Source of the DNA: Lacibacter sp. H375
GTDB taxonomy: Bacteria > Bacteroidota > Bacteroidia > Chitinophagales > Chitinophagaceae
Direction of reading: 5' to 3'
Assembly (NCBI RefSeq): GCF_037892425.1
Contig: NZ_JBBKTT010000001.1
Location: 4,526,001-4,590,000, forward strand
Length of the DNA: 64,000 nucleotides
The notes below the pieces were generated by a model. That model had not been told where the DNA came from. It worked only from the letters and a program-made list of their open reading frames with translations, and made no database searches. Of this stretch, positions 16,523 through 38,439 are shown in pieces (positions within the stretch are counted from its first letter, which is position 1; every line of letters starts with the position of its first letter). Both the position numbers and the translations under genes were made by a program.

Positions 16523-16538
16523 CATTTGCTGTTTTGAA

Positions 16539-16556
16539 TTTTGACAATTGTCAAAA
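16539..16556. promoter_or_regulatory. Perfect 18-bp palindrome, candidate Crp/Fnr operator
   Basis: TTTTGACAATTGTCAAAA is a perfect palindrome with TTGAC-N4-GTCAA at its core (16541-16554). It lies 17 bp after the Crp/Fnr stop codon. Its centre is 29.5 bp upstream of a TAGTTTTA -7 box (16577-16584) of the YiaAB gene, which places it near -43, the usual position for Crp/Fnr activation. An almost identical arrangement is found at 38426-38439. Confidence 0.7.
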
Positions 16557-16576
16557 AGCTTGCGAAAGTCAACCGA

Positions 16577-16584
16577 TAGTTTTA
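16577..16584 (+). promoter_or_regulatory. Candidate Bacteroidota -7 box for the YiaAB gene
   Basis: TAGTTTTA matches TAnnTTTG at seven of eight positions. A start site about 7 nt later would leave a short leader of about 13 nt before the ATG at 16605. Confidence 0.45.
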
Positions 16585-16604
16585 CAGCAAACAACAAAAC
16601 TATC

Positions 16605-17030
16605 ATGGAACAGAAACAAACTCTAGCCCCATCTCCGGCTTTTATTGCTGCATCATGGGCGGCACTTCTCATTGGCGTCACTGCCTTCATTATTGGCTTA
16701 TGGAATGCTGATATGGAACTGAATGAAAAAGGATATTACTTCACTGTTTTATTGTTTGGATTATTTTCAGCCATCTCCGTGCAAAAAGCCGTGCGAGATC
16801 AAATTGAAGGAATACCTGTTACCAATCTTTACTACGGCATTTCGTGGTTCTGCACCATTGCTTCCATCATTTTATTAGTGGTTGGTTTATGGAATGCAGA
16901 AATGCTGCGAAGCGAAAAAGGATTTTACGGTATGAGTTTTACATTAAGTTTGTTTGCATCCATTGCCGTACAAAAAAACACAAGAGACAGTCGGTTAAGC
17001 GAAGTTTTGCAAAAGGACGATCATCAATAA
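16605..17030 (+). CDS. YiaAB two-helix domain membrane protein
   Basis: 141 aa from the ATG at 16605; the in-frame extension to 16548 would read through the promoter. It carries two tandem copies of the YiaA/YiaB module, each with two transmembrane helices: FIAASWAALLIGVTAFIIGLWNADMELNEKGYYFTVLLFGLFSAISVQKAVRD, then YYGISWFCTIASIILLVVGLWNAEMLRSEKGFYGMSFTLSLFASIAVQKNTRD. The repeated ending AxxVQKxxRD shows an internal duplication. An inner-membrane protein of unknown function. It is predicted to be activated by the adjacent Crp/Fnr protein. Confidence 0.88.
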   Translation: MEQKQTLAPSPAFIAASWAALLIGVTAFIIGLWNADMELNEKGYYFTVLLFGLFSAISVQKAVRDQIEGIPVTNLYYGISWFCTIASIILLVVGLWNAEMLRSEKGFYGMSFTLSLFASIAVQKNTRDSRLSEVLQKDDHQ

Positions 17031-17031
17031 A

Positions 17032-17063
17032 AAACAGCCCATGCTTTTTGCATGGGCTGTTTC
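17032..17063. terminator. Bidirectional rho-independent terminator
   Basis: A perfect 12-bp stem (AACAGCCCATGC at 17033-17044, GCATGGGCTGTT at 17050-17061) with A and T runs separates the convergent YiaAB and DinB genes. Confidence 0.85.
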
Positions 17064-17079
17064 AGTTCTCATTAAAAAG

Positions 17080-17571
17080 TTATTTCAGTAATAACATCTG
17101 ACCAAGATGATTGGCCATGTGACCGGTGCGGCTTATCAATACATTTAATTTGTTGCGATGAGGTTCCTTAGCAAAGTCTTCGGCCGATACTGCAGTATGC
17201 CTGTGAAGCCATTCCTCAGCCGATAATGTTTGAAAGTGCGTATTTAATTTCGCATTCACGGCTTCAAGTCGTTGCTTTAATTCGGTTACACTTGGTTTTG
17301 AAAGCCCCGACTTGTCGGGATTTTTTATGAATACCTCCTCCATCTCCGGGTATAAACGATCACTGAAACCAAGTAATGGTAATAACGCATCGCTTACTGC
17401 AATTAAATGGCCTAACAAGTAAACGCCGGTGTTTCTGCCCGGCGCAATTTCCTTAGCCATTTGTTCATCAGTAAGAGCATCGATGAGTTTGATGAGTTGT
17501 TTGTTCTGCGATTCCCATGCTTTAAGCGTCATGTCTGTAACGAGGTTCAATTGTATTGTTGCTGTGTCCAT
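17080..17571 (-). CDS. DinB-family metal-binding protein
   Basis: 163 aa from the ATG at 17571. DinB four-helix bundle: the first histidine is in VYLLGHLIAVSDALLPLLGF, and the last helix carries two more in TGHMANHLGQMLLLK, forming the usual metal triad. Family members include bacillithiol- and mycothiol-dependent transferases, but most are uncharacterised. A 14-bp palindrome CCCGACTTGTCGGG (17306-17319) sits inside the coding sequence and encodes part of the loop PDKSGLSKP. It looks like a small repeat embedded in the gene. Confidence 0.88.
   Translation of the reverse strand: MDTATIQLNLVTDMTLKAWESQNKQLIKLIDALTDEQMAKEIAPGRNTGVYLLGHLIAVSDALLPLLGFSDRLYPEMEEVFIKNPDKSGLSKPSVTELKQRLEAVNAKLNTHFQTLSAEEWLHRHTAVSAEDFAKEPHRNKLNVLISRTGHMANHLGQMLLLK
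17306..17319. repeat. CCCGAC-TT-GTCGGG palindrome inside DinB gene
   Basis: Perfect 6-bp arms. Related CCCGAY...RTCGGG palindromes occur at 39154-39170 and 45896-45919, suggesting a dispersed small palindromic family. Confidence 0.45.
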
Positions 17572-17998
17572 TCTCAATAATTTAAGTTCAAATTTAGGAA
17601 GCTTTGTACTAAAGACCAGCACAAACCAGTTTCAACGTTTTTCGCACACCCGCAAAATCTGCTTGCATTTACCGAATCAAATTTCTAAGTTTATCTATTC
17701 CCTCATTTCAACCACCCAAAATCTGTATATGTCGAACAATTTTGTTGACATGAAACAGGACAGTTCTGTTCCTTCTCAAGGTAGCACCAATCCCATTTTA
17801 GAAAGGCGGTTTTCCATCGATGTAATAAACGATATTGCTTTGCTGCGACTGAAATGTTTATAATGGTTGTCTCAGGCTTTTAGCCACAGGCCGACAGGTA
17901 TTCCCGAACTAATACCCTGATTTTACCAACAGTTTTTGGCATGGCATGATGATTGTTTAAGTCATACTGGCATTTAATTTAACCTTAAACTCCTATAT
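17572..17998. other. Gene-poor interval with a possible small ORF
   Basis: No recognised gene. A 44-codon ORF on the plus strand (17729-17863, starting MSNNFVDMKQDSSVPSQ and ending DIALLRLKCL) has plausible amino-acid usage but no known family and no clear start signal. It may be a small protein or a remnant. Confidence 0.3.
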
Positions 17999-18319
17999 AT
18001 GAAAACAAAATATTTTGACTTTGCAGCAATGCTGCTTATCGTATTGCTATTATCAGCATTTGCATTTCAAAATGGCGGCTCCATAAAAGGAAGTGTAGTA
18101 CCAATAGAGAACGCTTTCAGAGCCTTTGCTATTCTCGACAAGGATACCATCAAAAGCAATATTGTTGGGGGCAATTTTATACTTGGTGATCTTAAACCTG
18201 GCACTTATCAACTGATCATTGAAGCTATTCCGCCATACCAGCATAAGTTCCTCACCAGCATTCTTGTAAAACAGGGAGAATCTACCAATGTAGGTGAAAT
18301 TCAACTGTTGTTAAAATAA
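17999..18319 (+). CDS. Small secreted carboxypeptidase-regulatory-like domain protein
   Basis: 106 aa. The N-terminal signal or anchor helix (DFAAMLLIVLLLSAFAF, about 6-22) is followed by one beta-sandwich resembling the carboxypeptidase regulatory-like domain: GSIKGSVVPIENAFRAFAILDKDT...GGNFILGDLKPGTYQLIIEAIPPYQ...VGEIQL. The GxVxPxxx and F-x-LxxLxPGxYxLxIxA pattern is typical. It probably acts as a binding or spacer domain in the periplasm. It precedes an L,D-transpeptidase by 71 bp on the same strand, so co-transcription is possible. Confidence 0.75.
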   Translation: MKTKYFDFAAMLLIVLLLSAFAFQNGGSIKGSVVPIENAFRAFAILDKDTIKSNIVGGNFILGDLKPGTYQLIIEAIPPYQHKFLTSILVKQGESTNVGEIQLLLK

Positions 18320-18390
18320 TATAACAGGCCGTAAGTTCTTTGTGGCATAACCTTTGCCAAACAGGGATACACAATCAAATCATAACGGCA

Positions 18391-19251
18391 ATGAGCATGC
18401 GTTACACCCATATTGTTTTCATCCTGTTTGCAGCTTTTACATTTCTACAATGCGATCAGCTAACTGAAATTAAAGTTGCACCCAAGAAAAAAAGATCATG
18501 GGTTAAGCCTGAGCGACTGAGTTATCATGTTGAAAACCCAATCGACTGGTTACAAAAAAATGTAACAGCTGTACAAAAGAAGATTGTATTGGCTGTTAAC
18601 CGTACTGATAGTAGCCATCTTAAAAAAATGGATTCGATTCTTGTTCCTGATGATCTTAGTGGGGATCTTGAATTGTATCTACCCTTCCCACCGAGCGTCT
18701 CTTACTTAAATGATATTGAGAAAATAATTTTCTTCTCCTATCCTTCGCAAACATTTGGAGCGTATGAACATGGAGAACTTGTATATGCAGGCCCAACAAA
18801 TATGGGACGCAAAGCAGACCCCACTCCTACAGGTTTGTTCTATACAAACTGGAAAGCAGAAAAAACAACAAGCACATTTAACGATGAGTGGGACTTGCTG
18901 TGGAATTTTAATATTGAAAACAAACTGGGTGTAGGTTTTCATCAATACGAGTTACCAGGCTATCCTGCTTCACATTCCTGTTTGCGTTTATTAGAAACCG
19001 ATGCTAAGTTGTTGTATGAATGGGCTGACCAATGGATCCTCAACAAAAAAGAAGAACTGCTTGCAAAGGGAACTCCGGTTATTGTATTTGGCAATTATCC
19101 CTTTGATGGAACAAAACCATGGTTACAATTAATCAGCGACCCACGTGCACTGGATGTAAGAGACGAAACTATTCAACAGGTAACAGCTCCTTTTATAAAT
19201 GACATTAAGAAACAACAGGAAAAAAGAGTAAAAGTTATTTCCAATTTATGA
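18391..19251 (+). CDS. L,D-transpeptidase (YkuD fold) lipoprotein
   Basis: 286 aa from the ATG at 18391. The signal ends in FTFLQC, so Cys21 is the probable lipidation site. The YkuD catalytic region is at about 115-225: YPSQTFGAYEHGELVYAG, MGRKADPTPTGLFYTNWK, then FHQYELPGYPASHSCLRLL. His184, His195 and Cys197 fit the catalytic motif, but the usual SHGC is SHSC. Family members make 3-3 peptidoglycan cross-links or attach proteins to peptidoglycan. A lytic transglycosylase gene follows 480 bp later, and a second L,D-transpeptidase lies at 24474. Confidence 0.88.
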   Translation: MSMRYTHIVFILFAAFTFLQCDQLTEIKVAPKKKRSWVKPERLSYHVENPIDWLQKNVTAVQKKIVLAVNRTDSSHLKKMDSILVPDDLSGDLELYLPFPPSVSYLNDIEKIIFFSYPSQTFGAYEHGELVYAGPTNMGRKADPTPTGLFYTNWKAEKTTSTFNDEWDLLWNFNIENKLGVGFHQYELPGYPASHSCLRLLETDAKLLYEWADQWILNKKEELLAKGTPVIVFGNYPFDGTKPWLQLISDPRALDVRDETIQQVTAPFINDIKKQQEKRVKVISNL

Positions 19252-19730
19252 TCTCTATTTCAATTGGGTTTTTACGAACCAATAAACATGATGTTGTTTA
19301 AAAAAATACTTCTATTGAGATTTCTACTTCAATACGTTCCCACCGTCAGATAAAATAAATACCTGTTGTATCGTTGCACAAAAAACACAAACATAGTGTA
19401 TTAGCTCTTTCAAAATAATAGTGATCACGCATGTTTACTCATATTCGTAAAACTCCCTGACATTATTGCTGTGGAAAACTTAGCACTGTGTTTGTCAGCG
19501 CATTAAGCTGTCAGCGTAGTTTTACTAACCCTGTTTACTATGATTCGCCGAAAATGCATTCTACTTTTGTTCTCGCATCGCTTACAATGATGCATGCAGT
19601 TACAACCGTACTTTAAATAACCCGTAACCCGATTACTGTTTTGTAACTGCAGTTCCCTCCAATACTTTATCGAAAAACTGTTTTTTAGAAATCCATTTCC
19701 CATGAGCATTTCTTTACTAAAAACAGTACA
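19252..19730. other. Intergenic region upstream of lytic transglycosylase gene
   Basis: No coding pattern. An exact -7 type box TACTTTTG (19562-19569, plus strand) could give a transcript with a leader of about 155 nt for the transglycosylase gene; no clear -33 partner was found. No stable long hairpin was seen. Confidence 0.35.
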
Positions 19731-20609
19731 ATGAAAACGACTCTATGGAAACAGGCAGGTTTATCCATCATCTTATTACCTCTGTGTAATACCATGTATG
19801 CAAAATCGCCACAACAGAAACATGAATCTTTATTATCGCATTTGTATGCAACAAATGCTGTATTACACGATTCTTTGATCGCTAAAACATCTGCAACAAA
19901 AAACCTTATCGTCCCAACGATTCAGTTGCAGTCTTCCGTTCGTGGTTTTGTTGATCAGTATCTTGAAGAACACGCTGAGATGCTGGATAATATTAAAGAA
20001 AGAAACAGTGGTACATTTAAAACTTTACAGAAGATATTAGTGAAGCGTGGTATTCCCGCTGAGTTAATGTACCTCGCTGTAGTTGAATCAAAATTAAAAA
20101 ATAGTGCTACCTCAGGTGTTGGTGCTGTTGGTGTTTGGCAACTAATGCCTGTTACCGCAAGATATCTTGGCCTGCGTGTGGAAGGTAAAACAGATGAACG
20201 CAGGTATCTCTATAAAAGTTCTGCGGCTGCTGCAGACTACCTTGTAGAATTATACAAGCAGTTTGATGATTGGTTATTGGTTGTAGCTGCTTATAACTGC
20301 GGATCAGGAAATGTTTACAAAGCCATCAAACAATCGGGCAGTCGTGAGTTCTGGAAACTGCAACGTTTTTTACCAACTGAAACAAGAAATCATGTAAAGC
20401 GTTTTATTGCTACCCATTATTATTATGAAGGTGAAGGCAGTTTAGCTACACTTACCAAAACTGAACGCAACAATTATCTTGCATCACTAATTAATATTGA
20501 AGAAGAAAGCAATGAATCAGATAGTATACCTCCATCGTCTACTCAACCTTTGAATTGGGTAATGATTGCGCAGCTTGAAGGAGAATTAACTTTTGTTCTG
20601 AGAAAATAA
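19731..20609 (+). CDS. Lytic transglycosylase (SLT/MltD-like)
   Basis: 292 aa with a signal peptide (about 1-24, ending MYAKS). The SLT catalytic domain covers about 100-235: IPAELMYLAVVESKLKNSATSGVGAVGVWQLMPVTARYLGL contains the catalytic Glu119 and the GVWQLMP substrate-binding motif, and VVAAYNCGSGNV the conserved AYN block. There are no LysM repeats, unlike MltD; the C-terminus is a short polar tail. It cleaves glycan strands of peptidoglycan in the periplasm. It stands with two L,D-transpeptidases within 7 kb. Confidence 0.93.
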   Translation: MKTTLWKQAGLSIILLPLCNTMYAKSPQQKHESLLSHLYATNAVLHDSLIAKTSATKNLIVPTIQLQSSVRGFVDQYLEEHAEMLDNIKERNSGTFKTLQKILVKRGIPAELMYLAVVESKLKNSATSGVGAVGVWQLMPVTARYLGLRVEGKTDERRYLYKSSAAAADYLVELYKQFDDWLLVVAAYNCGSGNVYKAIKQSGSREFWKLQRFLPTETRNHVKRFIATHYYYEGEGSLATLTKTERNNYLASLINIEEESNESDSIPPSSTQPLNWVMIAQLEGELTFVLRK

Positions 20610-20631
20610 AACCTTCGAAACGTTCTATTCT

Positions 20632-20669
20632 GAAAGAGTGGTTGCGGTAATGCAACTGCTCTTTTTTTT
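20632..20669 (+). terminator. Rho-independent terminator
   Basis: A stem AAAGAGTGGTTGC / GCAACTGCTCTTT with two G-T wobbles is followed by a run of T, 23 bp after the transglycosylase stop. Confidence 0.75.
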
Positions 20670-20741
20670 GGGGCTACACGAGGACTCAAATATTTAATTC
20701 AAGTACTATTTACTTAATAACCCTACCCACCCTGTCGCTAA

Positions 20742-21422
20742 TTATACTCTCTTCATAAAATAGAAATTCATTGTTCGGGAAACTTTAAATCCCAAACGTT
20801 CATAAACAGCAATAGCCCTGTCGTTGTCATCACGTACATGCAGGAATGGCTGTTGGGCATTGTTTAAAATAATCTGTAGTTGTTGCTTCATTAATACAGA
20901 TGCATAACCTTTACCCAAATGGTCAGGATGTGTACATACTGCACTAAGTTCAGTATAGTTTCCAACGTGCAGACGTTGGCCTGTCATAGCTACTAATTTA
21001 CCATGAACGAAAATTCCGTGGTAAGAACCAAAACTGATTGTTCTTTTTCCAAAGGGACCGGGCTTGGTGAGCTTCACGAGGTCGATCATTTCATCCACAT
21101 GCTGTTCAGTTAACGGAACAACATTGGAGAACTCACCAACAATACTTTGGGTGCCTACATAAACAAACTGCAATCCTTTGATCTCGTGTTGCAGTTGCCA
21201 GCCTTTCGGCTCCTTTATGCGGGAAGGAATAGCATACAATATTCTGCGGCCTTGTGGAAGCAGATCATAAAGTTCTGCAAAACCATATTTATTATCTTCA
21301 GCAAAGCCAGCAAATGGCGATACTTCTTCATCAAAGTATTTCACTTGCTCATTACCAAAACTTAAATGTCTGTCGCCGGTGAGCAAGGCGTTGTAAACGG
21401 GGTTTTCTAAAAAATGATTCAC
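20742..21422 (-). CDS. GNAT-family N-acetyltransferase
   Basis: 226 aa. The GNAT fold occupies the C-terminal half: GTQSIVGEF, VHGKLVAMTGQRLHVGNYTELSAVCTHPDHLGKGYASVLMKQQL (acetyl-CoA-binding loop HLGKGYA), and DRAIAVYERLGFKVSRTMNFYFMKRV. The N-terminal half (DLLPQGRRILYAIPS) fits the FR47/YncA-like subgroup. The substrate is unknown. Cytoplasmic. Gene orientation is opposite to the transglycosylase, separated by its terminator. Confidence 0.9.
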   Translation of the reverse strand: MNHFLENPVYNALLTGDRHLSFGNEQVKYFDEEVSPFAGFAEDNKYGFAELYDLLPQGRRILYAIPSRIKEPKGWQLQHEIKGLQFVYVGTQSIVGEFSNVVPLTEQHVDEMIDLVKLTKPGPFGKRTISFGSYHGIFVHGKLVAMTGQRLHVGNYTELSAVCTHPDHLGKGYASVLMKQQLQIILNNAQQPFLHVRDDNDRAIAVYERLGFKVSRTMNFYFMKRV

Positions 21423-21477
21423 CTTGCAAAAATACCTGTTTTGAAAACCCGTTGTGCTCCCACGATGTGGTCATTTG

Positions 21478-22461
21478 TTATTGCTGTTCTTTGCTTGTTT
21501 TCGGTTGTTGCTTCGGTGCAGGTTGTTTCGTTTTGGGTGTTTCTTTTTGTATGCGGATGATCTTACGAATAATCTCTGCCACTGGGGCGCCTATTCCCAA
21601 ACGTTGCGCATTTGAGTTTGCAGGAGCAGCCATCCTGTTTACCGGATCGAACAACAAGTAATTCCCATCTTTCATCCCGGATGAATCAAGCGTGCCGGCC
21701 GGAACATACAATTGTATTTTCACCTGCTGGTAACCGTTAGGGAAATAACGAAGATAATAGCCACCCTCCTGTTTGTACCATTGTTCCTTTTTATAATCTG
21801 CACGATGTACAACCGATTTTTCACGCAGTACAGCAACACGTTCAAATGCCTCATAAGTGTTGCTTCCTGTTTCAAACAACTGCTTCATGTTGATATGCGC
21901 TCCTGTAAATTTTGTTTCGGGCAATGCCTTCGCTACCGTCTTTACTACACCCATTACACCGCCCTTTAATTCAAATATCTGTTTTCGTGTGAGCAATTCC
22001 TGTGCTGTTAATTGCACAGGCCATGACAGCTTATTATAGTCAGACCCGCTTACGACTGACCATAACAGGAGTTGAATATTTTTTTGATTGAGATGTGGCT
22101 TTTGTAATGAAGTACGTAACACTGTCTGCACAATATCCTTTCGATAAGTTTGCAGAGGAGTTTGTAAATATGCATCTCTATCTGAGGGATCGGGAGTGCC
22201 GGGCTGCAGACAATAACTTTTATAAACTGCTTCATAATAACCTTCTGCCAGTACGATCTCGCCTTCTTCGGTTTGTTGCAAATCGGTTAATGGCTGCGGT
22301 TGAACACCAACAAGCAGTGTATCAATTAACAAAGATGTTGACGTTGCAGCTTTTGCAACTGGCACTTGTTTACGATTACTGCTGAGATGATCTTGTGAAA
22401 CGGATGCGCAGGCTGTTAAAAATAAAAACAACCATACATGTTTGAGTAGAGTTTTAGGCAT
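21478..22461 (-). CDS. Hypothetical lipoprotein
   Basis: 327 aa from the ATG at 22461. The signal ends in FLTAC (Cys18). The mature chain contains IVLAEGYYEAVYKSYCLQPGTPDPSDRDAYLQTPL, then a helical region with QNIQLLLWSVVSGSDYNKLSWPVQLTAQELLT, a segment resembling envelope proteins that bind or process ligands. It ends in a proline/lysine/glutamine-rich tail (TPKTKQPAPKQQPKTSKEQQ). I do not recognise the family. It precedes the GNAT gene on the same strand with a 55-bp gap, so they may be co-transcribed. Confidence 0.72.
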   Translation of the reverse strand: MPKTLLKHVWLFLFLTACASVSQDHLSSNRKQVPVAKAATSTSLLIDTLLVGVQPQPLTDLQQTEEGEIVLAEGYYEAVYKSYCLQPGTPDPSDRDAYLQTPLQTYRKDIVQTVLRTSLQKPHLNQKNIQLLLWSVVSGSDYNKLSWPVQLTAQELLTRKQIFELKGGVMGVVKTVAKALPETKFTGAHINMKQLFETGSNTYEAFERVAVLREKSVVHRADYKKEQWYKQEGGYYLRYFPNGYQQVKIQLYVPAGTLDSSGMKDGNYLLFDPVNRMAAPANSNAQRLGIGAPVAEIIRKIIRIQKETPKTKQPAPKQQPKTSKEQQ

Positions 22462-22670
22462 ACGGTACGATTTAGATGAGTGTTGATGAAGGAACGATTT
22501 CCAGATCAACTATAAATGCAACAACAAAATAGAAAACGATTCTCAGATTTGAAAGTTGTGCCAGGCAAAACATTGTTAAGATTGGAAAGGTCGAAGGCAA
22601 CAGAAAAATGACCGGTACCTGTAGCACTATTAACAGCTAAATGCTACTTTCGCAGTCTTAAAAAAATATA

Positions 22671-23117
22671 ATGAGCGAAATAAAATTAACAACCGGCGAA
22701 ATACATACAGCCAAAGGCATCATGAAATTTGAATTATATGATGATGATGCACCTATTGCAGCAGGCAATTTTAAAAAACTCGTAAGCGAAGGATTTTATA
22801 ACGGATTGAAATTTCACCGGGTAATTCCAGACTTTATGATCCAGGGCGGATGCCCAGACGGAACAGGTGCTGGCGGGCCAGGATATACTATTCCCTGCGA
22901 GTTAACAGGCAGCAAGCAAATTCACGACCGTGGTGTTATGTCGATGGCACACCGTGGACGAAATACCGGTGGCAGCCAGTTTTTCATTTGTCATAACCGC
23001 AACGGTGTAAAACATCTTGATCGTAATCATACCTGCTTTGGACGCATTACTGAAGGAGTAGAAATTATTGATGAAATTCGTGCCGGTGATGTAATGCAGA
23101 AAGTAATACTTACTTAA
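22671..23117 (+). CDS. Cyclophilin-type peptidyl-prolyl cis-trans isomerase
   Basis: 148 aa, a compact single-domain cyclophilin without signal peptide. Active-site blocks are visible: FHRVIPDFMIQGGCPDGTGAGGPGY, SMAHRGRNTGGSQFFICH and NHTCFGRITEGVEIIDEI. It catalyses proline isomerisation in cytoplasmic protein folding. It is a monocistronic gene with its own terminator. Confidence 0.95.
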   Translation: MSEIKLTTGEIHTAKGIMKFELYDDDAPIAAGNFKKLVSEGFYNGLKFHRVIPDFMIQGGCPDGTGAGGPGYTIPCELTGSKQIHDRGVMSMAHRGRNTGGSQFFICHNRNGVKHLDRNHTCFGRITEGVEIIDEIRAGDVMQKVILT

Positions 23118-23138
23118 TTCTTCAACTCCTCTGTATTC

Positions 23139-23173
23139 TAAAGTCTCCGGTATTTTACCGGAGACTTTTTTAT
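23139..23173. terminator. Rho-independent terminator
   Basis: A 12-bp stem (AAGTCTCCGGTA / TACCGGAGACTT, from 23141) is followed by TTTTTTA. It lies between convergent cyclophilin and oxidoreductase genes. Confidence 0.85.
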
Positions 23174-23194
23174 TTACAGAAGAGTTGTCGTTAG

Positions 23195-24160: not shown

Positions 24161-24473
24161 AAATACTTTGTTCGTTTAATCCAAATAAAAAAGGGAAGGT
24201 ATTGTATTCTTCAAATCTTCTTTGACTTTATCGTTTCTTTTATTACAAGCTCATTAACTAATTAAATTCATTTTAAAGGCAGCATATAACGCTATCAGCT
24301 TACCTCTAACCAAAAAACCGACTGATGAAACAGGTTGGGCAAAAAACTCCCCGCTTTTGCCAACCGTTCATATGCGGGGCATTGACAGTTGGTGGGAAAC
24401 CCATTTACACTTATCCAATCTCCCTCCTCTACCTTCTTTATTGGAGGGGCATAGCTTTTGTATAAAGAAAACT
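24161..24473. other. Intergenic region with two hairpins
   Basis: No gene is visible. Two GC-rich inverted repeats lie close together: CCCCGC ... GCGGGG at about 24350-24379, and CTCCC/GGAGGGG at about 24420-24450 directly upstream of the L,D-transpeptidase. They could be a terminator remnant or 5' leader structures. Confidence 0.35.
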
Positions 24474-26093: not shown

Positions 26094-26156
26094 TTTTTGA
26101 ATAGACCGTGGCCCTTGTTGTGTGGTTTCACCATGAAGGGATTTTTTTCTGAAGCA

Positions 26157-26279
26157 ATGAATAAAGAAAGAGCAGTTGTGTTTTCACCATTGCTCTTTCT
26201 TTTCCTTTGGTGGACATGCCGAGCTCAGACAAGCATCCCTATTCCCCATACGTCAACAACGCATGTTGACTCGCTGTGA
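26157..26279 (+). pseudogene. Possible orphan signal-peptide fragment
   Basis: A 40-codon ORF reads like an isolated Bacteroidota signal peptide (MNKERAVVFSPLLFLFLWW, then CRAQ) followed by only 16 residues. It overlaps the 3' end of the convergent acyl-CoA-dehydrogenase-like gene. It may be the start of a lost secreted protein or simple chance. Confidence 0.2.
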
Positions 26280-27919: not shown

Positions 27920-27961
27920 AACTGATTGTCTTATTCACTCAGGGGCATGCACATGCAACTT

Positions 27962-30213: not shown

Positions 30214-30312
30214 CAAAAGCATTGTATTTGATAGATTGTATTAGCAGGTAAAGACAGGAACATTGGTTTAAGCTGCAATTATATCAAACCAAGTATGCCT
30301 TCAGCAAACAAT

Positions 30313-32151
30313 CTACTTTTTAATATTCTTAATAATTGTTTCTATTGTAGCCACATCATTATCAAATCCTCCATGTGAAGTGCTTTTTGAATACAGACCC
30401 GGACTGTGATACGATTTGATTGTTGCACGTTGGTAGTTACTTTCCTTTTCAAAATATTTCTGCATGCCTAAGATGGGCGTTTTTCTGCCGGGCTCAAACG
30501 AGTTGGAAACAAGATAGAGCAACGATTTGGAATAGATGGAGCAATTATCTTTCAGTTCAACATCATCACTCAAATGATACTGATAATAGTTGTTTATTTT
30601 TTTATTCTGAATGGCCTTGAGAATAGTGGTATCAAACAATTCATTGGTGACGGCAGGTGCCATAAACTGAACTGTTTTGAAACTCCAGCCGAGGCTTATT
30701 AATTTCTCCACCAAATGACTGTGCACAATACTGCCTGCCGAGTGGCCGATAAGATGAATATTGACATGACTCTTTAATTCGCTCTTGGCTGATGTTGCAT
30801 ATTTATACAATAACTGACCACCGCTGTTTTTTTCATAACTGATGGCCTTTGCATTTTCCTTCATCTCCTTCCATACCTTACTGCCAATAGGCGCTGCCAA
30901 CCGTTCAAGCCGTTCATCTTTCCAATTAACGATCCAGTCAACAATGCCACCCGTCATACGTGGTTCCTTACCCAGCAAGGTATCTTCCAACATACTTTTA
31001 ACTGTACTTAAAATATCAGTCTCCCACATCAGCATAATGGGAAATATCTGCGCATCATATAATTTTTTACACCAAACAGCATAGCTATCGGCTGCCGACT
31101 TTTCACCCACCAAACCACCGTGTGCATAAATAGCAACATCCATCGGTTTGTTTTTTAATCCCCATCGTTCTCTTGCAATGCCTGCATGTTGTGTTACCAA
31201 TGCTTCAATATCCAATTCGGTTGTGCGGTATTCGCCGGAGTTACTCAACCGGCCATTGTTTTCCATATCAATAATAAACGGATCGAGTTCTCTTTTCTTC
31301 AGTATTGGATCAGCTGCAATGGCCACTTTGTTTTTTTTATCTAACCTGAGTGTGGCCGAATTGGCAATGGCCAAATGAAGATCGGTGGTAACACCCATTT
31401 GCGCTACCCAGCAATCCATTGCATTCACCTGCCAGTCTTCATACGTTAATACGGCAAGACCGTTTGTTCCCCATTCCTTGCCCCATGAATTCTGAATGAT
31501 AAAACCTGTTTGATTATAGCCAATGATCACAAACGCATGACCTCCATCCGTCTCTTTTACTTTTGTATTGGGAATTTCTAAGTACTTGTGATGTGTTGAT
31601 TTTTTTGGAACGTCCCAGCCTGCATGACAAACAGCGCTTGCATACAAAATACCAAGATCATTAATGGCACAATGCATGTCTTCAATACTTTTCGGCTCTA
31701 CCCTGTAGTAAGCACCTAACGGATAGTTTACTGAATTGAGCCACCAATCGCCTTCCTCACCTTTAATATCAGGCTTGGGCATTTGCAGTGTTTTCCAGAA
31801 CCGGTTTTCGCAGGCACCATGTTTATGCCAGCCTTTAATGGCACCTCTTAAACTGGAACCTTCATCTTTTATATAGCCCGGAAATTCATCGTAACGACGG
31901 GCCATTGAATACAGCATGAAAGGTGATGCGGTAAAGCCTTGATTATTGACGGGATCAATTTTACGTGCGAGATAATTTACAACTGTGGCCAATGCAAAGC
32001 CGGTGCAGGCGCTGGTTTCTTTTTGGTGCAGTATGGGAAGTTTTGTTTCCTGGATGAACGCTTTGCGGGGAGCTGTTGTAACGGCGGGTTGATACATTCT
32101 GTCCCTGATATCAATTTTATCAGGCACAACATTGTTTTTCCTGTTTTTCAT
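30313..32151 (-). CDS. Papain-like (C1A) cysteine protease fused to an alpha/beta-hydrolase domain
   Basis: 612 aa, no signal peptide (MKNRKNNVVPDKIDIRD). Residues about 35-255 are a C1 peptidase: Gln43 and Cys49 in HQKETSACTGFA, His205 in GGHAFVIIGYN, and Asn221 in QNSWGKEWG form the complete papain set. Residues about 335-612 are an alpha/beta-hydrolase-like domain: AHGGLVGEKSA (oxyanion strand), the nucleophile elbow GHSAGS with Ser471, and a C-terminal HGGFDND supplying a possible His. This combination of protease and lipase/esterase is uncommon. It may be an effector or a self-processing enzyme. No immunity gene, secretion signal or VgrG/PAAR marker lies beside it. Confidence 0.85.
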   Translation of the reverse strand: MKNRKNNVVPDKIDIRDRMYQPAVTTAPRKAFIQETKLPILHQKETSACTGFALATVVNYLARKIDPVNNQGFTASPFMLYSMARRYDEFPGYIKDEGSSLRGAIKGWHKHGACENRFWKTLQMPKPDIKGEEGDWWLNSVNYPLGAYYRVEPKSIEDMHCAINDLGILYASAVCHAGWDVPKKSTHHKYLEIPNTKVKETDGGHAFVIIGYNQTGFIIQNSWGKEWGTNGLAVLTYEDWQVNAMDCWVAQMGVTTDLHLAIANSATLRLDKKNKVAIAADPILKKRELDPFIIDMENNGRLSNSGEYRTTELDIEALVTQHAGIARERWGLKNKPMDVAIYAHGGLVGEKSAADSYAVWCKKLYDAQIFPIMLMWETDILSTVKSMLEDTLLGKEPRMTGGIVDWIVNWKDERLERLAAPIGSKVWKEMKENAKAISYEKNSGGQLLYKYATSAKSELKSHVNIHLIGHSAGSIVHSHLVEKLISLGWSFKTVQFMAPAVTNELFDTTILKAIQNKKINNYYQYHLSDDVELKDNCSIYSKSLLYLVSNSFEPGRKTPILGMQKYFEKESNYQRATIKSYHSPGLYSKSTSHGGFDNDVATIETIIKNIKK

Positions 32152-32590
32152 ATGCAGTGTTTGGGAACAATGTAAAAATTATAGTGGAATTGTGCAATGG
32201 TGAAAACACGGTGAAAATATTTTCACCCGTTTTGCTTTAATGACAATGCAAGTGGCGTTGCTGATAACAAGCAACGGTGGCGGACATTCGAATTATTATT
32301 GAGCATGAAAGACCGGCTGAGGCTGAAGCCACATGCATAATATTGGCACTTAGTTGGCTTGCACTTCCCTGTTGATGGTGCGGTGGCCTGAATATTTTTT
32401 TGTGAATTGGTATTATTCCCCTTTGTAATTGTCTATAGTATGTACAATAATCTGTTTCGGGCGCTATGATATTGAACTATGTTGACGGATGACTTTTTCA
32501 GGAAGAATAATAACTAAAGCTGCAATTAAGTAAAGTTGAACACGGGCTTAAAATAAATTTAATACTATGGTAAGAAAACTGAAAGGAATA
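32152..32590. other. Intergenic region upstream of GH10 xylanase gene
   Basis: No gene-like frame. It is A/T-rich and contains the promoters of two divergent genes (protease fusion to the left, xylanase to the right). I see no strong palindrome or riboswitch-like motif. Confidence 0.4.
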
Positions 32591-34210
32591 ATGAAACAAA
32601 TGTTTTTAGCATTCGTGTGTTTTTTAATATTAATCTGTTCATGTAAGAAAAAACCAGCCGGAAATACGGGTGGAGGAACGACTCCTCCAACTGCTGAATC
32701 TGCGCCATTAAAATCAGTTGCCACTTTTCCTATTGGTGCTGCAGGCAGTAATTTCTCTTTTATGAATACCGCACTTTCATCGGCCATACTAAAAAGGGAT
32801 TTTAATGCAATTACTTTTGAAAATGAAATGAAGAACAATGCAATCGTCAATTCTTCAGGCGCCTATAATTTTACTACCGCTGATGCCATGGTAGCTGCTG
32901 CACAGGCGGCTAATTTACAGGTACACGGGCATGTGCTGGCATGGCATGCACAAACACAAGGTGCTTATTACAGGAGTATCTTATCGGCAGCAACGCCGGG
33001 CACAGTGAACCTATTGCAAAATCCCGGTTTCGAAAATGGCGATGCAACAAGTTTTACCGCATACACAGTTTTGAACTCAGGTAATCCTGCGGGTACAGCA
33101 ACTATAACCGTTGGTGCAGGTGCGTCGGAAGTGCGAACAGGTACACGTTCATTAAAAGTTGTAAACCCCACCGCTTATGGTAACGAACATTGGCGGGTGC
33201 AGGTAGCTTCTGATGCTGTTACACTTGAATTGGGTAAACAATACCAAATAAGTTATTGGGTAAAGGCGTTAACTGTAAATGGTTCTATCCGTTTATCAAC
33301 ACAACCCTCTCCTTTATACCAGGCCGATCAAACAATTGGTACCAACTGGCAGCAGGTTACATGGCTTATTACCGCCAATACCGCACAAACACGTATCGTG
33401 TTTGATTTAGGAAACAGCAGCAATACGTACTTCATAGATGATGTAAGTGTTAATGAAATGATTGGTGGCGGCAGTTCGGGCACTAATTATGCAAAGGTTG
33501 ATAGTTTGCTTAAAACAACGATCTATACAATTGCCGGTCATTTTAAAGGAAAGGTCAGAGGCTGGGATGTAATTAATGAAATGTTTGCTGATGGTCCGGC
33601 GGGTGCAATACGAAATAATACCAATACCGCTAATGCAACCAACAATGATGTGTTTGTGTGGAGTGAATACCTGGGCAGAGATTTTGGAGTAAAAGCATTT
33701 AAGTATGCAGCAGAAGCAGATCCGCAAGCCAAACTTTTTATTAATGATTACAATCTTGAGTTCTCCACTGCCAAGCTCGATTCGCTCATTGCATACGTTA
33801 ATGAAATAAGAACAAGAGGTGCCAAGGTTGATGGTATCGGCACGCAAATGCATGTAAGCATCAACACCAGTAAAACACAAATCGATAATCACTTTATTAA
33901 GCTTGCTGCAACGGGGTTACTGGTGCATATATCAGAACTTGATATTGGTGTAAATACCAATAACGCAACCAGTGTTGTTTTTTCTGCCGACCTCGAAAAT
34001 GCACAAGCCGATATGTACAACTATATTGTAACTTCTTATATGCGGTATGTGCCGAAAGCGCAACGCTATGGAGTAACCATTTGGGGTACACTCGACAACC
34101 AAAGCTGGCGCTACAAAAGCGGTGCAGATTATCCGTTGCTTTACACAGCAACAGGTGTAAAAAAACGGGCCTACGAATTTGTGTTGCGGGCATTACAATC
34201 GGGTTTGTAA
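32591..34210 (+). CDS. GH10 endo-1,4-beta-xylanase lipoprotein with inserted carbohydrate-binding module
   Basis: 539 aa from the ATG at 32591 (an earlier ATG at 32567 is possible). A lipobox-type cysteine lies in LILICSC, followed by a Gly/Thr/Pro linker. The GH10 barrel starts with FPIGAAGSN and FNAITFENEMKNNAI, then HVLAWHAQTQ. It is interrupted at about 139-290 by a CBM4/9-like beta-sandwich (NLLQNPGFENGDATSF...YFIDDVSVNEM). The barrel then resumes with the acid/base Glu330 in WDVINEMF and the nucleophile Glu449 in HISELDIG. CBM-in-barrel GH10 enzymes are known in gut and rumen Bacteroidota. It cleaves xylan at the cell surface. Confidence 0.94.
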   Translation: MKQMFLAFVCFLILICSCKKKPAGNTGGGTTPPTAESAPLKSVATFPIGAAGSNFSFMNTALSSAILKRDFNAITFENEMKNNAIVNSSGAYNFTTADAMVAAAQAANLQVHGHVLAWHAQTQGAYYRSILSAATPGTVNLLQNPGFENGDATSFTAYTVLNSGNPAGTATITVGAGASEVRTGTRSLKVVNPTAYGNEHWRVQVASDAVTLELGKQYQISYWVKALTVNGSIRLSTQPSPLYQADQTIGTNWQQVTWLITANTAQTRIVFDLGNSSNTYFIDDVSVNEMIGGGSSGTNYAKVDSLLKTTIYTIAGHFKGKVRGWDVINEMFADGPAGAIRNNTNTANATNNDVFVWSEYLGRDFGVKAFKYAAEADPQAKLFINDYNLEFSTAKLDSLIAYVNEIRTRGAKVDGIGTQMHVSINTSKTQIDNHFIKLAATGLLVHISELDIGVNTNNATSVVFSADLENAQADMYNYIVTSYMRYVPKAQRYGVTIWGTLDNQSWRYKSGADYPLLYTATGVKKRAYEFVLRALQSGL

Positions 34211-34401
34211 ACAACTTTCAGGCAGGTTCTTTTAAAACTTTCTACCAGGTTATTATACCAATACATGTATTGGTTAATCGCTGATGTTTGTTTTGCTGCC
34301 CAACAAATTTTTCATCCCTAGGTTACGAGGGAAATGTTGTGCATGTGTAAAAGGCAGGCTACCCTGTCGTGTTTATACGCCTGATACGCTTTATGTACGC
34401 T

Positions 34402-36102
34402 TTATCTACGGAGTATCGTGGGAGTATCCTGGCTTATGTATCGACCTCTCAGCTTCACAAACTTCACCAGCTTTATACGATCGCTGTTTAAATGCAATTC
34501 AATATTCCCGGTTCCTGTTTTTACCAGGTTGATGGAATAATTATTCATCAACAGTTTATCAGGCGTTACCAAAACAGCAGTGCTGCTGTCTTTCCCTGCT
34601 AAAACGACCGCATAGTTTCTGCCGGATGTGCCGGTGATTTCAAGTAAAGTATTTGTTTCATTGTTGCGGTAAGTGCCGTTCAATGCAGCGTAGTTAAACC
34701 TGTTCCAGTTAGCGGTGGCACGGACAAGCGTGTAAGGCGCATGTGTTGTGTAGTAAGCAGTAACCTGCATTTCCCCTTTTGCATTCTTCACAAATTCCTG
34801 CTTAAATGCAGGATCGTTCTTTTGATGAAATACATTATGCGATTCACGTTCCAGTTCTATATCGTTGCGTCCGTTGCGTTTTAAATACAACTTACCGTTG
34901 CGTATTTCAAATTCAAAAGCAAAATCATTACCGGTGAGGTATATGCCGGTCAACTCCTTTTCATCCACATAACTGCCAGCCCTTGCAGGTGCCGTTAACC
35001 AGGATTGTGTTTCGGTATTCAACTTAAAAAACAAATCGGCCATTTGACGTGTCTGCATTGCAGGAATTGATTTACCGGTATTGGTTAAGGTGATCATGGC
35101 TACCTTCTTTTCCGGGAAACGAAGTACAGTTGCTTTCCATGCACCTGTTGCGCCTTCATGAAATGTGTATGCAAGACCTTTGTAGTTTCCAAATTCAAGA
35201 CCATACCCATAATTTGTTACAGCAGACTGTTCAACCAGCTGCTGGCTTTTCTGAATGGTTGCGGTACTTACAGGTGTAACTACTTTGCCCTGCACAATTC
35301 TTTCCCATTGCAGCTGATCGTTGAGCGTGGAGAACAAATTACCATCGCCACATACATTCCATATCCAGTTGTAAGTTGTCCATGTATTAAAGTTGAAATA
35401 GGCCCTGGCAACGGGCCCACGGATGTTGTTGTAATTGTCTTCAAAGGAAGTGGCATACATACCCAGCATACGAAACAGATTGTTCGTGTAGGTTGTAAAG
35501 GACTGACCCGATAATTTTTCAACCAGCAATGCCAGTAAAATATAATTACTGTTGCTGTAGAGGTATTTGCTGCCGGGAGCAAAATTCAGTTCTTCCTGTT
35601 TCGTAAGCAATGCCAGTACATCGTTGTTGTTAAACGATTGCTTCCACCATGTAAAACCTTGCAACGACCACAGATCGTACACATCCCGTATGCCACTGCT
35701 GTGCGTTAACAAATGCCTGATGGATATCTTTTCTTTTATGCGGGGAAAAAGCTTTGGGAAGAATGTACGGATATCATCAGAGAGCTTCAGTTTACCTGCA
35801 TCCATTAACGTGAGAATGGCCAGTGCCGTAAACTGTTTTCCATTGGAAGCGATATTGAATCGTGTGTCGGCTGTGATCAACGAACTGTCGGCAAAGTCGG
35901 CAATGCCCGCCCATTTTTGATAAACCACTTCGCCGTTTTGTATGATGGCAGTGGCGATGCCCGGTGCATCAGACGGCACATCCTGTGTGGCAACCGAATC
36001 GAGTTTTTGCAGCAGTACCGGAGATAAAGGTGTAACTGTTTGTGCAAACAGGACCTGCAATGGAAGAAGAATAAAATAACTGATAAACGGAACTGATTTC
36101 AT
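34402..36102 (-). CDS. Secreted serine beta-lactamase-like hydrolase (class C / DD-peptidase fold)
   Basis: 566 aa from the ATG at 36102. A signal peptide (about 1-20, VLFAQ) precedes a beta-lactamase-related catalytic domain. Ser86 and Lys89 form the SxxK motif (ASNGKQ), and Tyr182-Ser183-Asn184 the YxN motif (LYSNSNY). An HEGATG segment (third motif HxG) follows. A C-terminal beta-rich extension (about 370-566, FEFEIRNGKLYLKRNG) is typical of Bacteroidota family members. The substrate may be a peptide, ester or beta-lactam; resistance cannot be inferred. It lies downstream of the membrane AraC gene on the same strand with a gap of about 70 bp. Confidence 0.9.
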   Translation of the reverse strand: MKSVPFISYFILLPLQVLFAQTVTPLSPVLLQKLDSVATQDVPSDAPGIATAIIQNGEVVYQKWAGIADFADSSLITADTRFNIASNGKQFTALAILTLMDAGKLKLSDDIRTFFPKLFPRIKEKISIRHLLTHSSGIRDVYDLWSLQGFTWWKQSFNNNDVLALLTKQEELNFAPGSKYLYSNSNYILLALLVEKLSGQSFTTYTNNLFRMLGMYATSFEDNYNNIRGPVARAYFNFNTWTTYNWIWNVCGDGNLFSTLNDQLQWERIVQGKVVTPVSTATIQKSQQLVEQSAVTNYGYGLEFGNYKGLAYTFHEGATGAWKATVLRFPEKKVAMITLTNTGKSIPAMQTRQMADLFFKLNTETQSWLTAPARAGSYVDEKELTGIYLTGNDFAFEFEIRNGKLYLKRNGRNDIELERESHNVFHQKNDPAFKQEFVKNAKGEMQVTAYYTTHAPYTLVRATANWNRFNYAALNGTYRNNETNTLLEITGTSGRNYAVVLAGKDSSTAVLVTPDKLLMNNYSINLVKTGTGNIELHLNSDRIKLVKFVKLRGRYISQDTPTILRR

Positions 36103-36173
36103 GCGATGCAAATTTGTGCAATGGTCGGTTGCGGCCGTTGAAAAAACGGTTCATATCCTGATTTGACACCAGC

Positions 36174-37361
36174 TTACCAGCTGTTTTTTTGAATATAAGC
36201 ATTGGGCGACAAACCTGTATGCCGTTTGAATGCCCGGTTAAAGGTTGATTTTGAATTGAACCCACAATCGTACGCAATGGCGAGCAGTGTTTGTAAACTA
36301 TGCTCGCCTTCCTGTAGTTTGGCGATCACTGCTTTCACCCGATGCTGGTTGATGTAGTCGTTAAAATTTACAGCAAAGCCCCGGTTGATGATCTGTGATA
36401 CTTTTTTTGGTGCGATGCTTAGCGGCTGTGCAATATCAGCGACAGACAGCTCCGGGTTTTCGTATAACTTTTTATCGAGCACCAGTTGTTCAATCCTGCT
36501 TTTCCAGTTGTCGATGTCGGGCAGTTCTGTTTTTACTTCCGCATCTTGTTGGGGTTCATGTTCAGCCGTGTCAACATTTTCCACTGCATCATTTGCTGAA
36601 GAAGCCCCCGGTTCGTTAAAGGAAGTAACTGAGCGGACGGTATTGACATAGCCACTGATGGATATGTAATAAAACAGCAATGAGAACGATAAATAGTACC
36701 AGAATTTGCGACCGAACTCATCCCACTCCGGGTTGATGATAAAGAACAAAGCCCTTAGTATCAACAACAACAGGAAGGCGAGCAAAAAACGTTGCGCCCA
36801 TATAAAGGTTAAGGAATCGGCATAGCTTACAGTATTGTAGGTAATCTGTTTGTAGGTTCGGTAGTTGCGTAAACTCAAGAGCAGGTACACAAGCAGGGAA
36901 CCAAAACCTGCGGCCTGGTACCAAAAGGCAAAATCTTTATCCCTTTGGTCTGCATAAAAATAATATTCACCAAGTACCAGCTGATCGGTTACCACAACCA
37001 CACAACTGTACAGGAGATACAACGCAGCAGGCAAAAAATGAAGCAGTTGTTTGCGGGTAAACACAAAGGAACGGTCGAACAGGCTGCGGCAATAAAAGTA
37101 TAACAGCGGCGGCAGTACCAGCAGTTGTTGAAACGGTATATAAAATAAAATATTCCGGTACGGCTGTTGGCTGTACCAGCCGGCATAGCCCAGCATAAAG
37201 GGTGAAATATACAGTACGCACAGCAGGGTGAATGCACTGAGCCAGAGAGCGGGTTTGTTATTGGTTTGTTTGCCTTTGATGAAGAGCAGCACAGCGAACA
37301 CGAGCCCGTGAAAAAAGAACATCAATAAAAAAGAGCTCTTTAAGCTGAAATCAAAAAGCAT
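36174..37361 (-). CDS. Membrane-anchored AraC-family regulator
   Basis: 395 aa. Seven predicted transmembrane helices occupy about residues 8-245 (for example FLLMFFFHGLVFAVLLF, ALWLSAFTLLCVLYISPFML, FLLAFLLLLILRALFF). A cytoplasmic linker rich in Glu and Asp follows. The C-terminus is an AraC helix-turn-helix domain (about 285-395): NPELSVADIAQPLSIAPKKVSQIIN and LLAIAYDCGFNSKSTFNRAFKRHTGLSPNAYIQ. Such 7TM-AraC proteins sense an envelope or membrane signal and control neighbouring genes, so the beta-lactamase-like gene 70 bp downstream is a likely target or partner. Confidence 0.92.
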   Translation of the reverse strand: MLFDFSLKSSFLLMFFFHGLVFAVLLFIKGKQTNNKPALWLSAFTLLCVLYISPFMLGYAGWYSQQPYRNILFYIPFQQLLVLPPLLYFYCRSLFDRSFVFTRKQLLHFLPAALYLLYSCVVVVTDQLVLGEYYFYADQRDKDFAFWYQAAGFGSLLVYLLLSLRNYRTYKQITYNTVSYADSLTFIWAQRFLLAFLLLLILRALFFIINPEWDEFGRKFWYYLSFSLLFYYISISGYVNTVRSVTSFNEPGASSANDAVENVDTAEHEPQQDAEVKTELPDIDNWKSRIEQLVLDKKLYENPELSVADIAQPLSIAPKKVSQIINRGFAVNFNDYINQHRVKAVIAKLQEGEHSLQTLLAIAYDCGFNSKSTFNRAFKRHTGLSPNAYIQKNSW

Positions 37362-37561
37362 GTACCTGAGAAATTTCTTTGCAGAAAAGATAACAAGTTT
37401 ACAGGGAGATTGTTGCGTTGATGAAAAGAACTGTTGTGGAATGTGGCATTACCGATAATTGAAACAGATGAAAAACTGCATAAGGATGTACAAGAGCACA
37501 AAATAATTACCATTTCCCTTGTTGTATGTTTTCTGTAACAAGGCGGTACTTGGGTTTACGT

Positions 37562-38362
37562 TTATACAGCCAATTCTGTTTCAACCCCACTTTCGATCCA
37601 TAAAAATTTTTCGTTCAAGCCTGATACTCTGATTTCTTTTTTCAACGACTCAACAGATTGCTTAAAATGCCACCACCCTTTGTAATGAATTGGAATTACT
37701 AAAGCAGGATTTAAAAGTTTAGTAGTTTGAATCGCTTCTTCTCCATTCATGGTAACTCTTAAATTCCTTTTTAAATATGGAAATGCCCCTGCTCCTAAGT
37801 GCAAGATAGCAATGCCTACTTTTTTCTTTTTTTCTAATTCATAAATTCCTTCAAAGAGCACCGTATCGCCAGAAATATAAATACAACCATTTTCCTGTCC
37901 TTGCCATTCAATTGTGAAACCCAACACCTTGCCCATCACTTTATTTAACCGTTTGATATTTGTATGTTGAGCAGGTATAGCCGTTATTTTTAGTTGTTTT
38001 ATCTTTTCCGTTTCAACAGAATATTCCTGCCAATCGTCAAGACCGATTGTGTTGTCATTTTTTAACCGTCGTTGAGCATCTTTTGTGGAAAGCACCAATG
38101 GAACTGTTTGAATATAAGCTCTGCCATTTTTATCCAGATTGTCGCTGTGATGATCGTGACTTAATAACACCAAATCAACTTTCCCGATCTCTTCAACAGA
38201 CAAAGCAGGATCAATATACTTTTTTGAAAATGCCAACGGGCGGCTCACATATTGCGGAAGCAATCCATCTTTTTTATCTAACGTAGGATCCGTTAAAATT
38301 TTAAATCCATTGATATTAATTAAAACACAGGCAGTGTCGATATGTGTAATTGTAATGCGCAT
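37562..38362 (-). CDS. MBL-fold metallo-hydrolase (UlaG-like)
   Basis: 266 aa, cytoplasmic. The metal motif is SHDHHSDNLD (His69, His71, His72, Asp74). Further ligands follow in IPAQHTN, YISGDTVLFEG and VIPIHYKGWWHF. This matches the UlaG-like metal-dependent hydrolase group; the substrate is unknown. It lies 73 bp downstream of the second Crp/Fnr gene on the same strand. An exact TAAGTTTG -7 box (38403-38396) and a TTGAC-N4-GTCAA palindrome (38426-38439) lie in the gap, so it is the likely target of that regulator. Confidence 0.9.
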   Translation of the reverse strand: MRITITHIDTACVLININGFKILTDPTLDKKDGLLPQYVSRPLAFSKKYIDPALSVEEIGKVDLVLLSHDHHSDNLDKNGRAYIQTVPLVLSTKDAQRRLKNDNTIGLDDWQEYSVETEKIKQLKITAIPAQHTNIKRLNKVMGKVLGFTIEWQGQENGCIYISGDTVLFEGIYELEKKKKVGIAILHLGAGAFPYLKRNLRVTMNGEEAIQTTKLLNPALVIPIHYKGWWHFKQSVESLKKEIRVSGLNEKFLWIESGVETELAV

Positions 38363-38395
38363 TTGTATTTCATTTTACTTTTTAAAATAAGAATA

Positions 38396-38403
38396 CAAAC
38401 TTA
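38396..38403 (-). promoter_or_regulatory. Bacteroidota -7 box of the MBL-fold gene
   Basis: On the minus strand TAAGTTTG is an exact TAnnTTTG match. A start site about 7 nt later gives a leader near 27 nt to the ATG at 38362. Confidence 0.6.
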
Positions 38404-38425
38404 TGCTGCTCAACTGTGAGAGAAA

Positions 38426-38439
38426 TTGACTTTGGTCAA
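38426..38439. promoter_or_regulatory. TTGAC-N4-GTCAA palindrome, candidate Crp/Fnr operator
   Basis: TTGACTTTGGTCAA overlaps the stop codon of the second Crp/Fnr gene. Its centre (38432.5) is 29.5 bp upstream of the -7 box of the MBL-fold gene, the same spacing as for the palindrome at 16539. Confidence 0.65.

Follow-up and report, generated by a model that had tools for sequence, protein, structure and literature searches.

The two small Crp/Fnr-type regulator genes found in a 64,000-nucleotide stretch of the Lacibacter sp. H375 genome (the window; positions are counted from its first letter) are each followed, at or closely behind the stop codon, by the palindrome TTGAC-N4-GTCAA and then by a co-oriented gene, and the candidate -7 box of that gene begins exactly the same distance from the palindrome at both loci. 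We think it likely (with a probability of roughly 0.83, judged from sequence comparison) that the two proteins are local class II activators of the gene next to them, each working through its own stop-adjacent operator. In such a scheme a short Crp/Fnr activator, whose reading frame stops just past the recognition helix, would bind as a dimer to the palindrome at, or directly behind, its own stop codon. With the palindrome at -41.5 of the co-oriented next gene, presumably its one main target, the bound dimer would overlap the -33 region, contact RNA polymerase and aid a TAnnTTTG promoter (class II) once the protein senses a signal. The pair belongs to a large family in the Bacteroidota; many of its members are built alike, and their half-sites tend to follow the helix. 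The features of the two loci are:

15959..16522, plus strand: small Crp/Fnr-type regulator 1, 187 amino acids (aa), GTG start; C-terminal recognition helix SQETLSRIRSRL; Pfam cNMP_binding, 42.9 bits
16541..16554, no strand assigned: predicted operator TTGACAATTGTCAA, centre 25 bases past the regulator 1 stop; kept behind homologues
16577..16584, plus strand: candidate -7 box TAGTTTTA, 29.5 base pairs (bp) from operator centre to first box base; predicted transcription start 16589
16605..17030, plus strand: predicted target (141 aa), a membrane protein of the YiaAB family; matches to Pfam PF05360 and NCBIfam YiaA obtained with a longer open reading frame (ORF) in the same frame, 16548-17030
38436..38999, minus strand: small Crp/Fnr-type regulator 2, 187 aa, GTG start; C-terminal helix VPETLSRIRKRIS; cNMP_binding, 40.4 bits
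38426..38439, no strand assigned: predicted operator TTGACCAAAGTCAA (written on the minus strand), with the regulator 2 TGA stop (38438-38436) inside the left half-site
38403-38396, minus strand: candidate -7 box TAAGTTTG, 29.5 bp from operator centre to first box base; predicted transcription start 38391
37562..38362, minus strand: predicted target, a metallo-beta-lactamase-fold (MBL) hydrolase, 266 aa; Pfam PF13483, 62.9 bits

The window modules and their conservation

The layout that a first-pass annotation had described at these loci is borne out base for base. The two palindromes it listed are the sole exact matches to TTGAC-N4-GTCAA within the window, where 0.05 are expected, and none of 100 shuffles contained two. 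Both regulator genes lie where it placed them and both encode the string ETLSRIR; the distance of 29.5 bp from palindrome centre to the first base of the -7 box holds at both loci when counted on the sequence, and Pfam identifies the next genes as the YiaAB and MBL-fold genes it had named. The YiaAB gene likely starts at the ATG at 16605.

The annotation had also made conservation of the palindromes at orthologous loci a test of its proposal, and this test does not refute it. Among named homologues of regulator 1 (80 loci were fetched and 77 parsed; L326, L332 and L363 were left out, as no gene was parsed in them), 72 of 77 have a perfect TTGAY-N4-RTCAA behind the gene, 63 of 77 have TTT[GA] exactly 33 bases from its centre, and YiaAB is next in 64 of 77. 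In the window copy and its 10 next-ranked homologues (62-88% identical) the site is present with at most two mismatches and TAnnTTT[GA] lies at exactly 29.5 bp, and the 22 bases between site and box differ widely among these 11 loci. One of the counted misses, L331, may be an artefact of the scan: its YiaAB gene lies 184 bases behind the regulator, and the start of a TTGAC is visible beyond the scanned stretch. Thirteen of the homologues are without YiaAB. Three of these have no site (L348, L349 and L380), the first two with a long frame on the other strand; the other 10 keep the site, eight of them with another co-oriented frame and two (L381 and L383) with the nearest long frame on the other strand. 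The MBL module has a single close orthologue in the set, L059 (91% identical); the palindrome there is identical, TAGGTTTG stands at an unchanged distance from it, and an MBL gene comes next.

Two side observations concern the reach of the regulator 1 arrangement. In three metagenome-assembled genomes (MAGs) labelled Paludibacter (L384, L387 and L389) TTGAC-N4-GTCAA is kept and one common gene of about 190 aa replaces YiaAB, possibly an exchange of target with a retained operator. In a MAG labelled Chlorobiota (L388) the site, with TTTG at 33 bases, stands behind a regulator 1 homologue, so that the arrangement may reach outside the Bacteroidota.

In the whole 5.08 Mb genome TTGAC-N4-GTCAA is infrequent, with six sites as against 18 for a reversed control pattern. 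The genome search that the annotation had proposed finds three of the six directly behind small ETLSRIR Crp/Fnr genes (the two in the window and one at C1:522100); two more are inside long coding frames (L003 and L004), and the last, C1:586814, lies in a longer hairpin-like repeat. There are 19 PF00027 (cNMP_binding) matches in this genome. Eleven are in short proteins (187-202 aa) whose C-terminus is at the recognition helix or closely behind it. Further stop-adjacent palindromes are found behind genes of this kind, with TTGATCAGAATCAA accompanying ETLSRVR, TTAAACCAGTTTAA accompanying YLSELR and TTGGTTTTTACCAA accompanying NFSKLL, and imperfect ones behind those for FLSKVS (TTAAACTTGGTTAA) and SLSRLR (TTAACTTAAGTGAA). 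The neighbours of the short regulators are YCII, isochorismatase, CMD, DinB_2, YiaAB, MBL, F420-oxidoreductase-like and (below its cut-off) glyoxalase-like genes; the Pfam scan gave no match for the neighbour of L018.

The family survey, spacing and orientation

A profile of eleven proteins (A1) was searched against overlapping sets of genomes: 14 from the same genus, 60 from the family, 99 from the order, 149 from the class and 247 from the phylum. With E limited to 1e-3, 1e-30, 1e-45, 1e-45 and 1e-40, respectively, 14, 52, 53, 75 and 119 genomes have a match. All locus counts are among the best A1 matches listed and some regions were hand-picked, mostly in listed order, so the sample leans towards proteins like those of H375. 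Genes were kept at E < 1e-25 with profile coverage to at least position 178, ORFs of more than 330 aa and near-duplicates were dropped, and 296 genes with flanks remained.

In the 14 same-genus genomes, 19 of 43 perfect TTGAC-N4-GTCAA sites are found no more than 120 bp beyond the 3' end of a small Crp/Fnr gene, where 0.009 are expected; the 92 genes counted are A1 matches with E up to 3e-25, and distances were measured from the end of the profile match. One regulator gene is flanked by perfect sites (G006:C80:1505 and 2271): relative to the profile match, one centre lies some 60 bp beyond its 3' end and the other 145 bp ahead of its 5' end, the only 5' case among the 43 sites. Autoregulation was considered and is not supported: 19 of 92 regulators have their own half-sites, within two mismatches, in their upstream regions, and about 15.6 are expected. 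This absence of clear enrichment agrees with the annotation's view that the regulators activate downstream rather than control themselves divergently.

Perfect 5-4-5 inverted repeats are frequent in any case, occurring in 16.8% of shuffles, behind 22.7% of 172 other genes and upstream of 25.5% of the regulators, and on those figures the palindromes might be chance features of AT-rich intergenic DNA. In the wider set they occur at -10 to +90 of the stop in 52 of 106 genes. A later-fetched set of 100 loci, uninspected before its test and including relatives of earlier loci, gave 42 of 100 behind the gene as against 18 of 97 upstream and 20.5% of shuffles. Chance is refuted by this set together with the two window sites where 0.05 are expected, the 19 of 43 genus sites and the 72 of 77 homologues, and we give it essentially no weight. 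The most enriched palindrome spacers are 2, 4 and 6. In 27 of 93 non-redundant pairs of regulator and site the stop codon is wholly within the left half-site, and in 25 of the 93 the palindrome centre is exactly three bases past the stop.

The position -41.5 is that of class II activators such as CRP and FNR. The annotation had put the operator centre near -43; the -7 box TAnnTTTG of Flavobacterium psychrophilum occupies -12 to -5 (PMC9723704), and this, together with the distance of 29.5 bp, moves the usual centre to -41.5 relative to the predicted start. The spacing is fixed well beyond the window. Among loci with perfect 5-4-5 repeats, 22 of 44 in the genus set and 18 of 51 in the wider set have TTTG at precisely 33 bases from the centre, and other offsets have 0-3 each, except for seven at 57 in the wider set. 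In the later-fetched set, with other half-sites and with the centre chosen by symmetry (at least four of five pairs), TTTG is at 33 bases in 24 of 100 loci and at 34 in 12 (36 of 100 for the two), the next highest offset being 56 with six; shuffles gave five and three in 1000 at 33 and 34. A dimer at -41.5 would also cover the -33 region, so that it is sterically possible that a bound regulator blocks polymerase and represses the next gene, or does both, and binding alone would account for the conservation and for the covariation described below. We nevertheless consider repression unlikely, since contact with polymerase would call for just such a fixed distance to the -7 box, whereas a repressor site tolerates many positions.

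The sites depend on the orientation of the next gene. They were accepted for 130 of the 236 genes whose neighbour is co-oriented, two of 26 with a convergent one and six of 28 where this was unclear (six loci were too short), though the site criterion partly uses the TTTG box and so favours the co-oriented class. These counts bear also on the idea that the palindromes are hairpins terminating transcription of the regulator gene, which is suggested by their place 3' of a gene and by the C1:586814 site, whose longer inverted repeat looks like such a hairpin. This seems very improbable to us: the window palindromes are predicted to fold weakly as RNA (-7.2 and -5.7 kcal/mol; z -0.63 and -0.48), neither is followed by a long run of T, accepted sites are rare before convergent genes (with the reservation about the criterion just given), and the exact spacing to the next promoter would be left unexplained.

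There is a lesser TTTG peak at 55-57 bases from the centre, which may come from loci with tandem sites. Such a layout, different from that of the two window modules, is seen in the third TTGAC module of the genome (L011/L052, C1:522100), which stands before an F420-oxidoreductase-like gene. Behind its ETLSRIR regulator are three site-like sequences in tandem, 22-23 bp apart, and close relatives are similar; we read these as degenerate tandem sites, the last of which would fall near the class II place. A -7 box at TGCCTTTT was rejected for this module because more degenerate sites follow it at intervals of 22-23 bp; the box is probably TAGCTTTG, which lies farther along. A full-size Crp/Fnr gene elsewhere in the genome (L016, C1:994756 region; 217 aa, SREVISR helix) has the palindrome GTGATTTGTATCAC directly behind its stop codon and TTTG at precisely 33 bases from that palindrome's centre, so regulators outside the short family may share the architecture.

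Recognition helix and half-site

The half-sites covary with the recognition helix of the neighbouring protein (our numbering relative to CRP and FNR follows the motif and the structures of such proteins). In the 93 pairs, which are less than 70% identical, mutual information links the residue at the CRP-182-like position with base 3 (z 11.0) and base 5 (z 14.0) of the half-site, and that at the 185-like position with base 5 (z 11.2); helix positions hx6, hx9 and hx11 reach at most z 2.2, and there is some signal at hx1, hx2, hx3, hx4 and hx10. In a set of 58 pairs under the same identity limit, Thr at the 182-like position goes with G at base 3 in 11 of 11 cases, as against 12 of 47 for other residues (p 6e-6). 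When the 182-like residue is Phe or Tyr, base 3 is G in seven of 12 pairs with Arg or Lys at the 185-like position and in none of 15 with other residues there (p 9e-4), and base 5 is A in 19 of 26 such pairs as against one of 31 others (p 2e-8). Single cases are of the same kind: two proteins with EF[LM]SK (L114 and L201) have TTGAA, and relatives with EYLSE, 42-54% identical in the rest of the protein, have TTAAA. Gln rather than Pro at the 180-like position is associated with T at base -8 (13 of 18 half-sites as against seven of 128), and the two window sites, TTTTGAC and TCTTGAC, differ likewise at that base. The shared regulator-target module proposed in the first-pass annotation is supported, and it is wider than was claimed and not tied to TTGAC.

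The palindromes could in principle be operators of some other regulator than the Crp/Fnr protein encoded beside them. The genome has 19 cNMP_binding genes to choose from, and sites of the TTGAC/TTGAT type are bound by several Crp/Fnr families (Rodionov et al. 2005; PMC1274295). The half-sites, however, follow the neighbour's own helix, and TGTGA-type half-sites accompany two (L079 and L184) of the three proteins that have Arg at the CRP-180-like position, making up three of the six half-sites in all; L074 has none. We therefore think control by another regulator improbable, and prefer the neighbouring protein as the one that would bind.

Several results weigh against local activation through a matched operator, or limit it. 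Relatedness inflates the covariation; the signal survives a control for relatedness, though in modest form. In the 52 pairs less than 45% identical outside the helix z is reduced to 4.4, 5.4 and 5.0 for the three main links, and the 185-like residue and base 3 are no longer linked (z 0.2). Bases 3-5 are predicted from the helix only modestly better than from the nearest relative (0.70 as against 0.61, p 0.02, with 48 of 58 scored), a pairwise test gives a weak gradient, and within the Ser class Glu does not differ significantly from other residues at the 181-like position (p 0.52). Only 139 of the 296 genes pass the site criterion, 106 of the 236 with a co-oriented neighbour fail it, and in the window's own genome no clear palindrome was found behind L009, L017 and L020. 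Conversely, L381 and L383 keep the TTGAC palindrome despite their opposite-strand frames. Of three perfect TTAAAC-N2-GTTTAA sites in the genome one is behind a regulator; this sequence, with 35 places at one mismatch or fewer as against 30 for the reversed control, is too AT-rich for these counts to speak for or against genome-wide use. Finally, three regulators in one genome share TTGAC, so cross-talk is possible.

Relation to known regulators and meaning

Both window proteins exceed the cNMP_binding (PF00027) cut-off of 27.5 bits. Neither has a Pfam helix-turn-helix match, the paralogue L011 (L001:2521-3099) reaching 22.2 bits, below the cut-off of 27; the A1 alignment runs through the helix with PDB 3dn7 and FNR-type chains. 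Both end after the recognition helix, which leaves no room for the usual wing, and neither matched the phage protein families. At E. coli class II promoters FNR and CRP combine an E-x-x-S-R helix with a TTGA half-site and a centre at -41.5, and they are global regulators of sigma-70 promoters; here, in contrast, the site lies behind the regulator gene and the promoter is of the TAnnTTTG type. Other than its E-x-x-S-R motif, which goes with a TTGAT-like half-site, FNR is marked by an N-terminal cysteine cluster for an iron-sulphur centre. Motif and half-site have their counterparts here (ETLSR in both proteins, TTGAC in the window and TTGAY in homologues). Regulators 1 and 2 contain no CxxC, and their first 20 residues are free of cysteine. 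Because they lack the cluster we do not file them as FNR; nor do we file them as HcpR, a group marked also by heme binding, since their neighbours are YiaAB and MBL-fold genes and not hcp or frdX. Two positions early in the cNMP-binding domain often carry a cysteine, profile position 45 in 195 of the 296 genes and position 55 in 157; regulator 1 has the first, regulator 2 has neither, and a redox link is possible in some members. The 88 targets scanned (five of the 93 pairs have no ORF of 60 aa) include 12 CMD, six YceI and six pirin proteins, among 25 of 61 families listed, which might fit stress or detoxification.

The best solved match to A1 is a 194-aa 'Cyclic nucleotide binding regulatory protein' (PDB 3dn7), aligned over 187 positions with E 5.3e-64; its helix is PEYLSEIRKK, and the protein likewise ends soon after the helix. 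We know of no operator or target for this protein, and a literature search returned no paper on it.

HcpR and Crp2 are like the present regulators in being of the Crp/Fnr type, in the TTGAC-N4-GTCAA motif and in having single-target local cases. In the parts of Rodionov et al. (2005; PMC1274295) that are available, the HcpR1 consensus is wyTTGACnnnnGTCAArw and CRP positions 180 and 181 co-evolve with the motif, HcpR2 of most Bacteroides is predicted to control only hcp, with which it is often co-localised, and in Thermoanaerobacter tengcongensis crp2 precedes hcp, with a CRP-like site. The motif, the 180/181 covariation and the predicted single-target or gene-before-target cases are thus already known. 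On the other hand, these are other proteins with other targets (hcp, frdX and norB), their covariation is at 180/181 and not, as here, strongest at the 182- and 185-like positions, and the same parts of that paper contain no rule of a stop-codon operator at fixed class II spacing. They give Campylobacter NssR, too, with TTAACnnnnGTTAA and Gln at the 181-like position, and make no mention of a site behind its own gene; here PQSLSR proteins go with TTAAC or TTCAC. No account of the stop-adjacent operator with class II spacing, its spread through the phylum or the 182/185 covariation was found in a literature search with literal terms and few subscription journals, so an earlier description is possible.

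The targets and sites of such small Crp/Fnr proteins might often be readable from the sequence behind the gene, since sites were accepted for 130 of the 236 genes whose neighbour is co-oriented, as noted above. Class II activation was worked out at sigma-70 promoters, unlike the TAnnTTTG type, and the present family would give a class II activation system at the latter. It would also supply many naturally matched pairs of helix and operator, with which one could test which residues set which bases. We put at about even odds the more general idea that each of these genes has at its 3' end a compact specificity cassette, with helix codons, stop codon, matching operator and class II promoter packed into about 100 bp and evolving as a linked unit. 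If this is true, protein and operator would stay matched through duplication, transfer and change of target, which could account for the ten or more paralogues in some genomes, and the family would be a natural protein-operator library for reading the Crp/Fnr recognition code.

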